Assembly: GCA_947630005.1 (NCBI GenBank)
Contig: CANRGB010000012.1
Coordinates: 1 to 41,825, forward strand
Length of the DNA: 41,825 bases
Direction of reading: 5' to 3'
Source of the DNA: an uncultured Lachnospiraceae bacterium
GTDB lineage: Bacteria > Bacillota > Clostridia > Lachnospirales > Lachnospiraceae
Position 1 is the stretch's first letter. Each line of letters starts with the position of its first letter. This document shows, piece after piece, positions 1 to 6,035 of the stretch. A program made the position numbers and the translations under genes. The notes beneath the pieces were generated by a model, which ran no database searches, was not told the DNA's origin, and saw nothing but the letters and a program-made list of their open reading frames with translations.

Positions 1-122
1 GCATCGGCATCCACTGCCAGGATCGGGTGTTTTCCCATCTCGCACATGCTCTGGATCAGCATGCCGCCGAGTGTCGTCTTGCCCACTCCACCCTTTCCCG
101 CAATTGCAATAATATGTGCCAT
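1..122 (-). CDS. cooC: CooC-like nickel-insertion ATPase (N-terminal part only)
   Basis: Only the first 40 codons are in the window; the gene runs off the left edge. The translation opens MAHIIAIAGKGGVGKTT, a deviant Walker A (P-loop) of the MinD/NifH/CooC class, followed by a segment ending VDAD, as in the CooC/ParA nucleotide-binding core. An excellent Shine-Dalgarno (AGGAGGG) lies just upstream of the ATG. CooC-type dimeric ATPases drive nickel insertion into carbon monoxide dehydrogenase (CODH) or acetyl-CoA synthase. The assignment to CooC rather than another MinD-like ATPase rests mainly on the CooT gene immediately upstream and the His-rich gene before that. The AcsF/CooC distinction cannot be made from this fragment. 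Confidence 0.75.
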   Translation of the reverse strand, partial: MAHIIAIAGKGGVGKTTLGGMLIQSMCEMGKHPILAVDAD

Positions 123-370
123 AAAACGGCCCTCCTGACTGTCTGCCGGGCAGTCTGAAGCCCCTGCCCGGCGTAATTGTACTGGTTGCGAAAATCTATG
201 ACAGCGGATATTCCCGGCCGCCGCGCGCAGCTCCCCTGCGCCCTGGCCGCATCCTGCCGCTGCCGTCCTATAACAGGGAAATGATCAGGCAGTCCCCCGC
301 TATATTCAAAAAATTATCGAAAACCATCCGGCGTATTACTGATCTGTCCCATCAATCCTGCCCTGCATGT
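123..370. other. Intergenic spacer between cooT and cooC
   Basis: This 248-base gap contains no convincing gene; the plus-strand ORF across it has no ribosome binding site. A GC-rich hairpin with the inner stem GCGCAG/CTGCGC (about 210-250) is visible but lacks a U tract, so it is not a clear terminator. cooC may be co-transcribed with cooT. Confidence 0.4.
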
Positions 371-553
371 TCAGCAGTTGATTCTGACTACCCCGCCGGT
401 AAGGTCCGCCATTGCAAGCGTACCTTCAATTGTCTTCTGATCCCCGAGCACATCCGTCAGAATAATCTTTCCGTCCCGGACCTCGATTTTGCTGACATAC
501 TCAAGAATCACGCTGTCGGGCTCTGAAGTCCTGTAAGCTGTTGCCAGACACAT
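371..553 (-). CDS. cooT: CooT family small nickel-binding protein
   Basis: This 60-residue protein begins MCLATAY and continues as a small beta-rich domain (VILEYVSKIEVRDGKIILTD). The CooT family is about 60-66 residues long and starts with Met-Cys; in Rhodospirillum rubrum, CooT is a dimeric nickel-binding maturation factor for CODH and Cys2 binds the metal. Cys2 is present here. The Shine-Dalgarno GGGAGGT precedes the ATG. The gene lies between a His-rich protein gene and a CooC-like gene on the same strand, which matches the R. rubrum cooC-cooT-cooJ gene set in content but in the order J-T-C. The family call is good; the nickel role is by homology. Confidence 0.8.
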   Translation of the reverse strand: MCLATAYRTSEPDSVILEYVSKIEVRDGKIILTDVLGDQKTIEGTLAMADLTGGVVRINC

Positions 554-588
554 AAACCCTGCACCTCCCTGGCAGAACCGTTCTGCTG

Positions 589-620
589 CCGTTTTCTTTT
601 CAAAAGCCGCCGGAAAACGG
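589..620 (-). other. Stem-loop ahead of cooT, next to a CAGAAC/GTTCTG palindrome
   Basis: CCGTTTTC (589-596) pairs with GAAAACGG (613-620). It directly adjoins a short palindrome, CAGAACCGTTCTG (573-585), just upstream of the cooT ribosome binding site. The palindrome could be an operator or the start of an RNA stem; no U tract follows, so this is not called a terminator. Confidence 0.35.
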
Positions 621-740
621 TTCCTGTATTAAACTTTTACTGATTTTGCCTGTTTGCCTGATTTTTTATTTTCTTATCTTCTATCTTCTTTGTTTCTTTA
701 TTTTTACCGGAATTTTATTATTGATTTTTCCGGTTTCTGC

Positions 741-780
741 TGATTTTCACTGATTCTTATTGATTTTTACTGTTTTTTTA
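741..780 (-). repeat. A/T-rich decamer tandem repeat
   Basis: Four consecutive 10-base units of the form TGATTYTYAY (last unit diverged) lie across the stop codon of the His-rich gene; a related T-rich stretch continues to about 660. On the coding strand the region is almost pure purine/A. The 10-base period phases the A-tracts with the DNA helix, so intrinsic curvature is possible. Confidence 0.6.
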
Positions 781-1213
781 CCATGGACAGAGCAAGGCTG
801 AGATAAAGATTCCCTTTCTGAAATTCATCCACCGCCTTCTTGATCTGCTCCGCCGCCTCGGCCTTCCCAGCCTCTCTCAGTTTATCCGCAACCTGATCAA
901 GCTCAGCCGCGTGGTGCTCATTGTGTTTCCACATATAGTCAAGCAGAGCCGTCATCTTGTCCTGGCCTGACGCCTCCGCGCCGGAACCCTGCGCCGCATG
1001 GCTGTGGCCGTGCTCGTGAGCCGCGCATCCGGAGCAGCCGCTCTCGCAGGAATCCTGGCTGCAGCCGTTCTGCTCATGGGTATGCTCATGCTCATCTTCA
1101 TGGCCATGCTCATGACTGTGGGGGTGAGAATGTTCATACGTATGCTGATGTGTATGAGTATGCTCGTGAGAATGCGGACATGGATTGCCGTTTTCATCGT
1201 GAACCAAATGCAT
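767..1213 (-). CDS. His-rich metal-binding protein, CooJ-like nickel chaperone candidate
   Basis: This is a 148-residue protein. Residues about 1-75 are extremely His-rich (EHTHTHQHTYEHSHPHSHEH) and include a Cys cluster, CSQDSCESGCSGC, followed by HEHGHSH. Residues about 85-148 form a predicted all-helical domain (MTALLDYMWKHNEHHAAELD...) without His runs. The modular design of one helical domain plus one His-rich arm resembles CooJ of R. rubrum, where the arm is C-terminal; here it is N-terminal. Position supports the role: it is the first gene of a co-oriented trio with cooT and cooC. The ATG is preceded by AAGGACG. There is no signal peptide, so it is probably cytosolic. It could alternatively be a general metal store; the family was not identified by search. 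Confidence 0.75.
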   Translation of the reverse strand: MHLVHDENGNPCPHSHEHTHTHQHTYEHSHPHSHEHGHEDEHEHTHEQNGCSQDSCESGCSGCAAHEHGHSHAAQGSGAEASGQDKMTALLDYMWKHNEHHAAELDQVADKLREAGKAEAAEQIKKAVDEFQKGNLYLSLALSMVKKQ

Positions 1214-1240
1214 AATCGTCGTCCTTTCGTGAATAAAAGT

Positions 1241-1258
1241 TTGTTAAGAATTTCACAC
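1241..1258. promoter_or_regulatory. Rex-like operator, copy 1 (leader of the His-rich gene)
   Basis: TTGTTAA-GAAT-TTCACAC resembles the Rex redox-repressor consensus TTGTKAA-N4-TTMACAA known from Firmicutes, with the last base deviating. It lies about 20-40 bases downstream of the predicted transcription start, where a bound repressor could block elongation. A near-identical copy lies at 1427-1444. Confidence 0.5.
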
Positions 1259-1286
1259 TGTAAAATCTTCTTTCACATTTGGTGCC

Positions 1287-1315
1287 ATTATAGCACAACT
1301 TGTTTATTCCCACAA
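1287..1315 (-). promoter_or_regulatory. Sigma-A promoter of the His-rich gene/cooT/cooC unit
   Basis: Read on the minus strand, TTGTGG is followed by a 17-base spacer and a perfect TATAAT. The expected start is near 1280, giving a leader of about 65 bases that contains the copy-1 Rex-like site. Confidence 0.7.
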
Positions 1316-1358
1316 CCACCAATATGTACTTTTTTTAGAACTTTTTTTAAAAACAGAA

Positions 1359-1400
1359 AAAATCCATGGCAAACTATTATGAAAATTTACCATGGATTTT
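1359..1400 (-). terminator. Terminator after gpsA
   Basis: An 11-bp perfect stem AAAATCCATGG/CCATGGATTTT encloses a 20-base loop. On the minus strand it is followed by TTCTGTTTTT. It closes the der-plsY-gpsA unit. Confidence 0.65.
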
Positions 1401-1426
1401 CTTAACGTTTTTTTAGCGCGAAAAGT

Positions 1427-1444
1427 TTGTTAAGAATTGCACAA
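1427..1444. promoter_or_regulatory. Rex-like operator, copy 2
   Basis: TTGTTAA-GAAT-TGCACAA matches the Rex consensus half sites at 12 or more of 14 positions. Together with flanking bases it forms a 23-base direct repeat with copy 1 (AAAAGTTTGTTAAGAATT then T or G then CACA). It lies between the gpsA stop and the gpsA terminator; two copies about 190 bases apart could allow looping. Confidence 0.45.
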
Positions 1445-1533
1445 TTTAACCTGGCCATTCTGCCGCAGAATATCCCCGCAAACGCAGGCTTATTCCGCCG
1501 GTTTATGTCAAAAATCTCTCCATCCGGGATGCG

Positions 1534-2553
1534 TCATCCGGCAAAATCCCACGGAAGCAGGGAATTTTCAATCTTGGAATCCCGAAGCATCAGTTCCGAT
1601 ACAGCCGCATGCGGGTCCTTTCCCTCAAACAGCACCTGATTCACCTGTTCAATGATCGGCATCTCAATGCCGCATGTCCGTGCGAGCTTTACCGCCGCTC
1701 TTGCCGAATAGACACCCTCGACGACCATGTTGACTTCTTTCATGGCCTCTTCCATTGTGTAACCTTTCCCGAGAAGGATGCCTGCCCGCCGGTTCCTGCT
1801 GTGCATGCTCGCGCAGGTAACGATCAGATCCCCCATACCGGTCAGCCCCGAGAAAGTCTCCTGATGTCCGCCAAGCTTCGTTCCCAGACGCGAGATTTCA
1901 ACCATTCCCCTTGTGATCAGGGCGGCTTTCGCGTTGTCGCCGTATCCCATCCCATCCGCGATTCCGGCGGCCAGCGCGATCACGTTCTTCAGCGCGCCGC
2001 CAAGTTCTATCCCCGTCAGATCCGGGCTGATATATACGCGGAAGCAGGCGCTCATGAACAGCTTCTGCAGATATCTCGCATCCTCCTCCCTGTGCGCCCC
2101 GATCACACAGGTAGTCGGAAGCCCTTTCGCGACCTCCTCCGCATGACTCGGTCCCGAGAGCACCGCGCATACCGTCTCCGGCAGAACCTCCTCCAGAATC
2201 CCGCTCATTGTATGGAGCGTGGACTCTTCAATCCCTTTTGAGGCGCTGACCAGGATCATTCCCGGACGGACATACGGCTTCATCCGCTCTGCCGTCTCTC
2301 TCACGCAGGCGGACGGAACGACGACGACACAGAGGTCCTTTCCTTTCACCGCTTTCTCCAGAGAAGAAGTGACCTCCATCTCCTCCGGAATCGAAATCCC
2401 TTCCAGTTTTGAGTCATGGCGCCGCGTCGCGCGGATCTGCTCTGCCTCGTCCTCTCTGTGTGACCACAAGGTTATCTGATGTCCGTTTTCAAACAGTAAA
2501 AGCGCAAGCGCCGTTCCCCAGCTTCCCGCGCCGATGACACCGATTTCTGCCAT
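1534..2553 (-). CDS. gpsA: NAD(P)-dependent glycerol-3-phosphate dehydrogenase
   Basis: GpsA reduces dihydroxyacetone phosphate to sn-glycerol 3-phosphate, the backbone of phospholipids, in the cytosol. The 339-residue length is normal. The N-terminal Rossmann motif IGVIGAGSWGTALA (residues 4-17) binds NAD(P)H. SGPSHAEEVAKG and ELGGALKNVIALAAGI are signatures of the family, the latter holding the catalytic Lys, and GLTGMGDLIVTC belongs to the C-terminal helical domain. AGGAGGCG precedes the ATG by about ten bases. It follows plsY by 23 bases, so synthesis of G3P and its acylation are co-transcribed. A terminator follows at 1359-1400. Confidence 0.97.
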   Translation of the reverse strand: MAEIGVIGAGSWGTALALLLFENGHQITLWSHREDEAEQIRATRRHDSKLEGISIPEEMEVTSSLEKAVKGKDLCVVVVPSACVRETAERMKPYVRPGMILVSASKGIEESTLHTMSGILEEVLPETVCAVLSGPSHAEEVAKGLPTTCVIGAHREEDARYLQKLFMSACFRVYISPDLTGIELGGALKNVIALAAGIADGMGYGDNAKAALITRGMVEISRLGTKLGGHQETFSGLTGMGDLIVTCASMHSRNRRAGILLGKGYTMEEAMKEVNMVVEGVYSARAAVKLARTCGIEMPIIEQVNQVLFEGKDPHAAVSELMLRDSKIENSLLPWDFAG

Positions 2554-2576
2554 AGGGCAACGCCTCCTGTAAATAT

Positions 2577-3227
2577 TCAGTCTTTCTTGTTCTCTTTAAA
2601 TAAGTAAGTTTTCCGCTCGCACCCATGAAGCAGGCGGTCAATATTTTCGCGGTGTCTCCAGAACGCGAGAATGGTCAGCGCCGCCGCCACCGCATACATC
2701 TCGTACAGCCGCGGCTGCGTCATCCCCCAGACCCCCATCTGTCCGAAGAGCAGGACCTCGATGAGAAACCCCGTGCAGACAAGCAGAGAGCCGAGCGAAA
2801 CGTAGTGTGTCAGAAGAAACGCGGTGGTGAACGTGACAATCCCAAGCAGCGTCATGACCCAGTTCAGCGCCAGCAGGAGTCCTCCGGTCGCGGCAATGCC
2901 TTTGCCGCCGCGGAATCCCAGATAAAACGGGTAATTGTGTCCGAGTATGGTTCCCGCTCCCGCATAGAGAGACAGAAGCGGCAGGATATCCCCGTACGTC
3001 TTCCGAAACAGAAACTGCACGGTCCAGACGGCAAAAGCACATTTCAGTCCGTCTCCGAAGAAGGTCAGAATCCCCGCTTTTGTTCCCAGCGTCCTGAGCA
3101 TGTTTGTCGTCCCCGCATTGCCGCTTCCATGACTGCGGATATCGATTCCGTGGAGACGTCCGTACAGATAACCGGTCTGAAACAATCCGAACACGTAGCC
3201 AACAGCCAGACATAGCAAACGTACCAT
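2577..3227 (-). CDS. plsY: Acyl-phosphate:glycerol-3-phosphate acyltransferase
   Basis: PlsY is the membrane enzyme that transfers an acyl group from acyl-phosphate to glycerol 3-phosphate to make lysophosphatidic acid. The 216-residue length is typical. Visible family motifs are GSGNAGTTNMLRTLG (residues about 36-50), FRGGKGIAATGG (about 105-116) and an early hydrophobic helix LLCLAVGYVFGLFQTGYL. Several hydrophobic segments fit a multi-pass protein. Its ATG follows the der stop by one base and its Shine-Dalgarno (AAGGAG) lies inside the der 3' end, so translation is probably coupled. GpsA, which supplies its substrate, is the next gene. Confidence 0.96.
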   Translation of the reverse strand: MVRLLCLAVGYVFGLFQTGYLYGRLHGIDIRSHGSGNAGTTNMLRTLGTKAGILTFFGDGLKCAFAVWTVQFLFRKTYGDILPLLSLYAGAGTILGHNYPFYLGFRGGKGIAATGGLLLALNWVMTLLGIVTFTTAFLLTHYVSLGSLLVCTGFLIEVLLFGQMGVWGMTQPRLYEMYAVAAALTILAFWRHRENIDRLLHGCERKTYLFKENKKD

Positions 3228-3228
3228 A

Positions 3229-4557
3229 TCAATTCTCCTTATCTCTGCGCTCGCGAATAATAAACTTCAGCGACGTCCCTTTAAATCCGAACGTATCGCG
3301 GATCTTGTTCTCCAGGTATCTCATATAGGAAAAATGCATCAGTCCCTTGTCATTCACAAATATGACGAAAGTCGGCGGCTTTACCGCGGCCTGGGTGATA
3401 TAATACAGCTTCAGCCGTTTTCCCTTATCGGAGGGAGGCTGCTGCATGGCCGCGGCCTCCGCCATGATCTCATTGAGGACGCCGGTAGCGATCCGCATGG
3501 ACTGGTTTGTGATGACCATATCGATCGTCTCAAACAGTCTCGGAAGCCGCTGCCCCGTTTCCGCCGAGATAAAAATAATCTCCGCGTACGGCATATAGGA
3601 AAGCACCGAGCGGATACGTTCCGTATACCGGTAAACTGTCTTGTCGTCTTTTGTAATGGCATCCCATTTGTTGACCGCGATCACGATCCCCTTTCCGCGG
3701 TCATGCGCGATTCCCGCGATCTTCGCGTCCTGCTCCGTCACGCCTTCGACCGCGTCGATCATGATGACGACGACGTCGGCGCGCTCCACGGCCGTCACGG
3801 TCCGGATGATGCTGTACCGCTCCAGTTCTTCTTTTACCTTGCTTTTTCTGCGGAGGCCCGCGGTGTCAATGAACACATACTCCTGCCCGTTCCATTTGAC
3901 GACGGTATCAACCGCGTCCCTTGTCGTTCCCGCGATGCTGGAAACGATCAGGCGGTTTTCCCCGGCCAGCCTGTTGATCAGCGACGATTTGCCGACATTC
4001 GGCTTGCCGACGATCGCGACCCGCGGACGGTCGTCCTCATAATCGTCAATCTCATCCGAATTAAAATGCACCGTCACCGCGTCAAGCATGTCCCCGATCC
4101 CGATTTTGTTGCTCGCGGAGATCGGATGGGGATCGCCGATTCCGAGATTATAAAATTCGTAGACATCCGCCATCATTTTCTGATAGCTGTCCACTTTGTT
4201 CACAACCAGAACGACCGGCTTGTGCGAACGGCGCAGCATATCCGCCACTTTTGAATCCGAATCGGTCAGACCCTGGCGGCAGTCTACAAGAAACAGGATC
4301 ACGTCCGCCGTATCGATCGCGATCTGAGCCTGCTCCCTCATCTGAGACAGAATGACATCGTTCGTATCCGGCTCGATCCCTCCCGTATCAATCAGGGTGA
4401 AATTGATATTCAGCCATTCCACGTCGGCGTAGATCCTGTCTCTTGTCACGCCCGGCGTGTCTTTTACGATCGAGATATTCTGACCCGCCAGCGCGTTGAA
4501 CAGGGTTGATTTCCCCACATTTGGCCTGCCAACGATCGCCACGATTGGTTTGCTCAT
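3229..4557 (-). CDS. der: Ribosome-associated double GTPase Der (EngA)
   Basis: Der is an essential GTPase with two tandem G domains that acts in 50S subunit assembly. The 442-residue protein shows G1 motifs GRPNVGKST (about 10-18) and GKPNVGKSS (about 183-191), DTGG and DTAG G3 motifs, NKVD and NKWD G4 motifs, and a C-terminal KH-like domain ending in a basic stretch ([11 protein letters not shown]). The start has AAGGAGGAAAAAG directly before the ATG. It heads a der-plsY-gpsA unit and is divergent from prs. In many clostridia the DUF512 gene sits immediately upstream of der; here prs is inserted between them. Confidence 0.97.
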
Positions 4558-4602
4558 CTTTTTCCTCCTTCTTTTTGCTTTTTTATCCGATTTTCCCGTT
4601 TG

Positions 4603-4631
4603 ATTTTACATGAATCCGAGTGCTTTGTAAA
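4603..4631 (-). promoter_or_regulatory. Sigma-A promoter of der-plsY-gpsA
   Basis: On the minus strand TTTACA, 17-base spacer, TAAAAT with a TG immediately before the -10. It is back-to-back with the prs promoter; only four bases separate the two -35 boxes. Confidence 0.6.
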
Positions 4632-4635
4632 GGGC

Positions 4636-4664
4636 TTGACTCTTTTTCCATGAAATGTTATAAA
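4636..4664 (+). promoter_or_regulatory. Sigma-A promoter of prs
   Basis: TTGACT, 17-base spacer, TATAAA. The expected start is near 4671, giving a leader of about 68 bases before the prs ATG. Confidence 0.7.
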
Positions 4665-4738
4665 TGTAGTATATATATGCGCACTACAATATTTTCACCG
4701 TAATTACCCATCTTTTTACCTTGCACAGGGAGGATCAT

Positions 4739-5917
4739 ATGTCAGATATACTCACTTTGGAGCAGACTCTTCCGGTCGGCCCCTTAAAAATCGCCGTTCT
4801 GGAAGGATGTCGCAAACTGGGCGCAACCGTGGACAGCCACATCGCCGCCATGCGGAGAGATACCGCCCGCCATCTGAAAAATCCGCCGATGGTTTCCGGT
4901 TATCTGGAGGACAGCTATCTTTTAGGCTGCAGCTGCCCGCGGTTCGGTTCAGGCGAGGGCAAAGGGCACATCGACGGCTCCGTGCGCGGGACCGATCTGT
5001 ATATTCTGGTCGATGTCTGTAATTACAGCCTGACCTACACGGTATGCGGATACAGGAACCATATGTCGCCTGACAATCACTATCAGGACCTGAAGCGCAT
5101 CATCTCGGCGGCTACCGGCAAAGCAAAGCGCATCAATGTCGTCATGCCTTTTCTCTATGAAGGCCGCCAGCATAAGAAAAACAAGCGTGAGTCGCTGGAC
5201 TGTTCCATCGCTCTGCAGGAGCTCTCCGATATGGGAGTCTCAAACATCATCACATTCGACGCGCATGACCCGCGCGTTCAGAACGCGATTCCGCTGAAAG
5301 GCTTCGATTCTTTCATGCCTACCTACCAGTTCCTGAAAGCGCTCGTGGACACCGTTCCCGATTTCCGGATCGACCCGAACCATCTGGCCGTCATCAGTCC
5401 GGACGAAGGCGCGATGGAGCGGGCCGTTTACTTCGCGAACATTCTCGGGCTGAGCATGGGCATGTTCTACAAGCGGCGCGACTATACGACGATCGTCAAC
5501 GGAAAGAATCCGATCGTCGCCCACGAATTTCTCGGAGACTCCGTCGAGGACAAGGACGTCATTATTATCGACGACATGATCTCTTCGGGCGGCAGTATGC
5601 TCGATACCGCGCGCCAGTTAAAAGAACGCAGGGCGAAACGCGTGTTTATCTGCACGACGTTCGGACTGTTTACGGACGGCTTCGAGGCATTTGACGATTA
5701 CTATGAGAAAGGATACATCTCGAAAGTCGTCACGACCAACCTGAACTACCGCGCTCCGGAGCTTCTCGCGAAACCCTACTACGCGGAGGCCGATATGTCC
5801 AGATTCCTTGCGATGATCATCGAATGTATGAACCACGACGTGTCCATGAGCAGGATCGAATCCCCCACCGAGAAGATCAACGATCTTCTTGCCTCCTATC
5901 ACGCGATCCGTTCCTGA
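4739..5917 (+). CDS. prs: Ribose-phosphate pyrophosphokinase (PRPP synthetase), long form
   Basis: The enzyme makes phosphoribosyl pyrophosphate from ribose 5-phosphate and ATP for purine, pyrimidine, NAD, His and Trp synthesis. The PRPP-binding loop VIIIDDMISSGGSMLDTA is clear near residue 280, and FDAHDPRVQNA matches the ATP/ribose-phosphate site region. At 392 residues it is about 75 longer than the canonical enzyme, with an extended N-terminus and insertions, a form seen in Lachnospiraceae-type clostridia. The ORF track starts at a TTG (4721), but the GGGAGG Shine-Dalgarno lies inside that extension and places the start at the ATG at 4739. A strong terminator follows. A class-level activity difference from canonical Prs cannot be judged here. 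Confidence 0.92.
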   Translation: MSDILTLEQTLPVGPLKIAVLEGCRKLGATVDSHIAAMRRDTARHLKNPPMVSGYLEDSYLLGCSCPRFGSGEGKGHIDGSVRGTDLYILVDVCNYSLTYTVCGYRNHMSPDNHYQDLKRIISAATGKAKRINVVMPFLYEGRQHKKNKRESLDCSIALQELSDMGVSNIITFDAHDPRVQNAIPLKGFDSFMPTYQFLKALVDTVPDFRIDPNHLAVISPDEGAMERAVYFANILGLSMGMFYKRRDYTTIVNGKNPIVAHEFLGDSVEDKDVIIIDDMISSGGSMLDTARQLKERRAKRVFICTTFGLFTDGFEAFDDYYEKGYISKVVTTNLNYRAPELLAKPYYAEADMSRFLAMIIECMNHDVSMSRIESPTEKINDLLASYHAIRS

Positions 5918-5937
5918 ACCGTTTCCCGGAAAAAAGA

Positions 5938-6035
5938 ATTCCTTATGCGGACCTGCGCATAAAGGGAGCCGCGCGAAGAGCAGACCGAAAAGGTTTTGTT
6001 CTCCGCGCGGCTGTTTTTGTGTGCGGGCCCGCATA
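5938..6035. repeat. Dispersed hairpin repeat, partial copy E
   Basis: TTCCTTATGCGGACCTGCGCATAAA, read in two overlapping pieces, matches the right half of the repeat at 18055-18076 (one base differs in GCGGGCC). A separated GCGGGCCCGC palindrome lies at 6023-6032. The prs terminator sits inside the element. Confidence 0.55.
5967..6018 (+). terminator. Terminator of prs
   Basis: AGCCGCGCG (5967-5975) pairs with CGCGCGGCT (6004-6012), with partial G-U-rich pairing of the inner arms around a GAAA loop. TGTTTTTGTG follows immediately. The DUF512 gene converges from the other side. Confidence 0.8.

Follow-up and report, generated by a model that had tools for sequence, protein, structure and literature searches.

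A CooJ-like histidine-rich protein paired with CooT at the predicted head of a Lachnospiraceae CODH/ACS operon

Three genes lie together at the very end of a contig from an uncultured gut bacterium of the Lachnospiraceae, and the first of them encodes a small histidine-rich protein, named HisP here, that is followed by a CooT gene and the beginning of a P-loop ATPase. The question raised by this locus is what kind of protein HisP is and which metal enzyme the group of genes might serve. The window, that is the whole stretch of DNA analysed, is 41,825 nucleotides long, and contig C12 of a 3.2-Mb MAG ends at its position 1. The features considered are as follows.

767-1213, minus strand: CooJ-like His-rich protein (HisP), 148 aa; open reading frame call, with homologues in family genomes and GTDB species genomes
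974-1213, minus strand: N-terminal His/Cys arm of HisP, residues 1-80, with 21 His and 5 Cys
770-973, minus strand: C-terminal two-helix domain of HisP, residues 81-148, with YMWKHNEHH; conservation, AlphaFold2 and profile match
371-553, minus strand: CooT nickel-binding protein, 60 aa, Met-Cys start; PF10133, E 5.4e-17
3-122, minus strand: CooC-type ATPase, N-terminal 40 residues, cut by the contig end; open reading frame
1241-1258, minus strand: Rex-like operator GTGTGAAATTCTTAACAA, 45 bp before the HisP start; sequence match
1357-1402, minus strand: terminator-like hairpin between gpsA and the HisP operon
1427-1444, minus strand: second Rex-like site TTGTGCAATTCTTAACAA; sequence match
1534-2553: gpsA, upstream of the HisP operon

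The predicted operon beyond the contig end

A preliminary description of this DNA had claimed a two-part His-rich protein, a CooT with a Met-Cys start and a P-loop ATPase, and all three are present on the minus strand. The CooT sequence (MCLATAY...) has Cys2 and a PF10133 domain above the gathering cut-off, and in its 60-residue length and Met-Cys start it is like known CooT proteins, with no difference seen. The truncated ATPase starts MAHIIAIAGKGGVGKTTLGG and contains the deviant Walker A sequence GKGGVGKTT, the position of the CxC site being past the contig end. Since only 40 of its residues precede that end, the earlier label 'CooC-like' could not be decided from the window alone.

Among GTDB species the closest to the window is L072, a rabbit-gut Lachnospiraceae MAG of a sister species, which is colinear with it at about 76-91% DNA identity over neighbouring genes. 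There the ATPase gene is complete and encodes a CxC site reading GCYCYVN, with CooS and a second CooC after it. Over window positions 1-149, exactly at the contig end, identity to this sister species reaches 99.3%, far above that of the adjacent DNA; it may be that sequence common to co-resident species broke the assembly here.

Homologues of HisP were found in 210 stretches of GTDB species genomes; the 80 named loci are labelled Lachnospiraceae or related Clostridia. CooT directly follows HisP in 79 of these 80, and the remaining locus ends at its contig end. CooS is present in all 72 named loci whose contig is long enough, most of them with CooC2 and AcsB after it, and the order in relatives is HisP-CooT-(MTHFR)-CooC1-CooS-CooC2-AcsB, with MTHFR inserted sometimes. 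Because the same genes continue into CooS, and mostly into CooC2 and AcsB, in relatives, the window is predicted from gene order to hold the 5' end of an operon for CODH/ACS, the nickel enzymes that turn CO2 into acetyl-CoA (Wood-Ljungdahl pathway), in this Lachnospiraceae species. The association of CooJ with CooC, CooT and CooS genes is thereby found in the relatives, the position of CooS in the window being past the contig end. In L077 (14100-14789) and 22 more of the 80 loci, a stand-alone CooS/prismane fragment of 230 aa, covering PF03063 positions 346-484, lies between CooC2 and AcsB.

The preliminary description had named the absence of CODH/ACS from the genome as evidence against its reading. 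Formally this is what was found, as a profile search of the source MAG gave no match to PF03063, TIGR01702, PF03598 or PF03599; yet, with the MAG 82.8% complete and its contig broken off within cooC, we attribute the missing genes to an assembly gap. The sole FTHFS of this MAG is likewise cut by a contig end.

Rex-like sites upstream of the operon are conserved in related loci. Sites with at most two mismatches to TTGTTAANNNNTTAACAA were found in 29 of the 80 upstream regions, compared with about 0.3 expected from mononucleotide shuffles, an enrichment that is overstated by the relatedness of the loci. The source genome encodes a Rex-type DNA-binding domain. An Rfam search of window positions 1-6000 gave nothing credible and no known nickel riboswitch.

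Co-occurrence with CooT, ACS and CODH

The distribution of the pair was examined in one draw of 299 Lachnospiraceae genomes, which are related, so that the counts below are not independent evidence for each genome; they are uncorrected for phylogeny. HisP was matched in 47 genomes, and CooT occurs in exactly 46 of these; the other match (G007), which is weak, contains a stop and has no CooT, was judged spurious and rejected. That a HisP homologue is found in 47 of 299 family genomes, nearly always with CooT directly after it, indicates that the gene arrangement is not due to chance. Full-length AcsB is present in 37 genomes, every one of which has the HisP-CooT pair, and full-length CooS in 60. 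Among the genomes with CODH, the pair is found in 36 of 36 with ACS and in 1 of 24 with no ACS detected (Fisher P 1e-15 on these uncorrected counts). The single exception (G201) has CooS inside the HisP operon, and its contig ends soon after.

Two further loci bear on the matter. In G219 (locus L068) the order, with gene names assigned by motif recognition, is CbiMQO-HisP-CooT-CooC-AcsD-AcsC-AcsE-AcsB, then a RACo-like gene, and no CODH match was found anywhere in this 90% complete genome. In L206 (8697-11618, minus strand) a His arm, a CooJ-like domain and a full AcsB form one reading frame of 973 aa, an arrangement seen in one genome only. A second candidate fusion of HisP and AcsB, in G682, was rejected, as the DNA has HisP as a separate frame of 169 aa with its own stop; L206 is thus the only real one. 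Together, the co-occurrence, G219 and the L206 fusion point to ACS or the CODH/ACS complex, over a free-standing CODH, as the partner of the pair.

A rival reading is that the pair serves the C-cluster of CODH, as is believed of CooJ and CooT in R. rubrum, and that its link with ACS arises only from the needs of the CODH clade in these operons. This reading is a serious one, although we would not call it probable. When CooC, CooT or CooJ is mutated in R. rubrum, growth on CO depends on additional nickel (PMC6006190), which for CooJ and CooT is a requirement tied to CODH, and CooS is encoded directly after CooC1. Against this, the pair is absent in 23 of the 24 Lachnospiraceae genomes that have CODH with no ACS detected, the ACS operon of L068 has the pair without CODH, and HisP is fused to AcsB in L206. 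Even these points may be compatible with a pair that serves the two metal sites alike.

Seven genomes carry the pair and have neither enzyme, so that it is not confined to CODH/ACS. These loci are L218, L061, L071, L070, L219, L220 and L221 (genomes G252, G295, G009, G238, G234, G081 and G199), and in all seven a CdhC-like protein of about 240 aa is encoded nearby or on the same contig, recognised by PF03598 in five and by sequence resemblance in L220 and L221. Most of these loci also have HGD-D proteins, a BadF-type ATPase and a CooC-like ATPase, and they possibly represent an undescribed metal system. A wider proposal is that in Clostridia the CooJ-like/CooT pair primarily supplies nickel to the A-cluster of ACS and not to CODH, and also serves a second, undescribed metal system without CODH/ACS, composed of the short CdhC-like protein, two HGD-D proteins, a BadF-type ATPase and a CooC-like ATPase; this we put forward tentatively, as a possibility that may well fail.

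The relationship of HisP to CooJ

The folded part of HisP comprises 68 residues and is modelled by AlphaFold2 as a hairpin of two helices (3-34 and 38-67; mean pLDDT 95), with H, N, H, E, N and A fully conserved in 41 family members. The arms of the homologues contain 19 His at the median and vary widely in length and composition, and at least two Cys lie within the last 35 arm residues in 79 of 81 homologues. The preliminary description had the His arm N-terminal, opposite to that of R. rubrum CooJ, and this holds for the window protein as for every armed homologue listed. It had further considered that the helical domain might belong to an unrelated characterised family; profile scans against Pfam and NCBIfam assigned it to no family.

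Arm-less forms of the domain also exist. In L186 (8580-8792), L190 (7780-7992) and L196 (7943-8299) a CooJ-like domain without an arm stands beside CooT, with CODH/ACS genes not nearby, and glycyl-radical-type or 2-oxoacid oxidoreductase-like genes are found near those of L186 and L190. The arm-less versions of L186, L190 and L218 are still paired with CooT. In L211, L213 and L214 a second, arm-less paralogue of 72-75 aa occurs in the same cluster as the armed copy.

CooJ is said to have been defined, by Alfano in 2019, through a conserved H(W/F)X2HX3H motif in its helical domain. At this motif the crystal chain of R. rubrum CooJ (6hk5_B, PDB 6HK5) reads HFLDHVEGH. The window protein departs from it with YMWKHNEHH, having lost the first His and the aromatic residue, and YM..HN..H is found in 79 of the 81 Lachnospiraceae homologues. 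The same domain was recovered around CooT genes of other Clostridia, where HWxxHNxxH replaces YMxxHNxxH; these clostridial members of HisP's profile family have the complete CooJ motif, and graded intermediates can be followed from HWxxHN through HLxxHN or HTxxHN to YMxxHN.

Profile comparisons, whose statistics are all modest as the domain is short, connect the two ends of this series. The Lachnospiraceae and clostridial subfamilies match each other with E 5.9e-13, and the alignment of the clostridial profile with 6hk5_B covers residues 10-63 of its 68, the motif's HxxxH staying in register (hhalign E 5.9e-5). When the subfamilies are combined (profile A3), E becomes 2e-5 and the score of real CooJ is reached by none of 4888 scored shuffles of the CooJ fragment. 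On its own, the Lachnospiraceae subfamily gives a weak match to CooJ (E 0.0087, with 70 of 4875 shuffles as good), and for this reason the homology rests on the bridging clostridial sequences. In a search of the whole PDB with the clostridial profile the CooJ chain ranks fifth, with E 0.44; CooJ was not matched in a single-sequence PDB search, and Foldseek with two models returned generic hairpins, CooJ not being among the 50 matches listed.

We conclude from these profiles that the helical domain of HisP is probably a remote homologue of CooJ, joined to it by the bridging clostridial sequences. HisP is not a strict member of the CooJ family, since its arm is at the other end and its motif is without the first His and the aromatic residue. 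Both HisP and CooJ are small and two-part, with a His-rich arm and a helical domain, and are encoded with CooC and CooT near CooS. CooJ is a homodimer whose Ni(II) site lies at the interface; the model of the HisP domain is that of a monomer. In CooJ, however, the His-rich tract is C-terminal, a feature that the window protein does not have, and the motif is HFLDHVEGH in place of YMxxHNxxH; HisP further differs in the Cys-rich stretch between arm and domain, in its association with an ACS-type operon and in its first position, ahead of CooT.

It is conceivable that the domain is an unrelated hairpin and that the HxxxH likeness to CooJ arose by convergence, given that the direct statistics to CooJ are weak and that small helical hairpins match easily. 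We think this unlikely, as the alignment extends in register over the whole domain, including HWxxHxxxH/HFxxHxxxH, the operon partners are common to both proteins and the motif intermediates are graded. Least likely of the readings considered is that HisP serves the general storage or detoxification of nickel (or zinc/cobalt), in the manner of Hpn and similar His-rich proteins, and is in the operon by chance: the variability of the arms, the seven genomes with the pair and no CODH or ACS, and the rich-medium deletion phenotype of the clostridial counterpart (see below) would agree with it, but HisP co-occurs almost one-to-one with CooT, is present in every ACS genome, has, beyond a mere arm, a conserved domain that folds and in which H, N, H and E do not vary, and remains paired with CooT in its arm-less versions (L186, L190, L218).

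Proposed nickel handling in acetogen gene clusters

It is likely, in our judgement, that the head of the CODH/ACS operon encodes a nickel-handling pair, consisting of a divergent CooJ relative with an N-terminal His/Cys arm and of CooT. Gene content, conserved order, the domain family, the CooJ sequence link and ACS co-occurrence are directly observed, whereas nickel as the metal, dimerisation, the order of transfer and ACS as recipient are inferred. In the mechanism that seems most likely, the arm of HisP would load Ni(II) and act as its cytoplasmic buffer; dimers of the two-helix domain would present a second site on the conserved HxxxH face (H97 and H101, with E104); nickel would then move to CooT (Cys2) and the CooC-type ATPases, and these would insert it into the CODH/ACS complex, the ACS A-cluster being the recipient that best fits the co-occurrence. 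The preliminary description had taken the first protein for an analogue that does the work of CooJ for CODH/ACS in an acetogen-like clostridium. Gene context supports this, with nickel binding and delivery as its presumed elements, and the evidence goes further than 'analogue', to a probable remote homologue on sequence grounds.

A similar locus has been studied in C. autoethanogenum, in which a gene for a His-rich protein, hp (CAETHG_1604 / LABRINI_07945), and the CooT gene nbp adjoin the Wood-Ljungdahl cluster (PMC10230548). Speaking for a role of this kind, deletion of hp or nbp gave slower growth in rich medium and lower AcsB and CooS1; speaking against it, growth in minimal medium was unaffected, and added nickel failed to set the CooT mutant apart from the base strain. 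The study leaves the function of hp open and CooJ is not mentioned in it (PMC10230548). Like HisP, the hp product is His-rich and encoded beside a CooT gene at the Wood-Ljungdahl cluster, and the arrangement in L191 (AcsB ... CooT, HisP) matches the published one; hp lies at the 3' end of its cluster, however, whereas HisP is at the head. Judging by arrangement and description, hp would belong to the HisP family.

A 2026 survey of CODH genomic contexts finds CooJ and CooT confined to clades E and F and lists 68 'potential CooJ' genes, collected by hand and with PSI-BLAST from CooT-containing operons, which adjoin CooS and CooT in operons of these two clades; those of clade E are nearly all tied to one-carbon metabolism (PMC13056359). 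These genes probably include the HisP kind. Arm orientation, motif, structure and ACS dependence, described here for HisP, do not appear in the survey text as considered (PMC13056359).

The idea is therefore not new in outline; what is new is the CooJ family link, the permutation of the arm and the dependence on ACS. ACS is a central enzyme of acetogens, and how it obtains its nickel is only partly known. With the relationship suggested here, an unnamed His-rich protein of acetogen clusters would gain a family, that of CooJ, and it would appear that a nickel chaperone can bear its His arm at either end while its motif drifts. Within one bacterial family, the presence of the CooJ/CooT pair tracks ACS and not CODH. 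The existing hp knockout of C. autoethanogenum can be reread as a candidate CooJ mutant, which makes the nickel question testable in existing strains.
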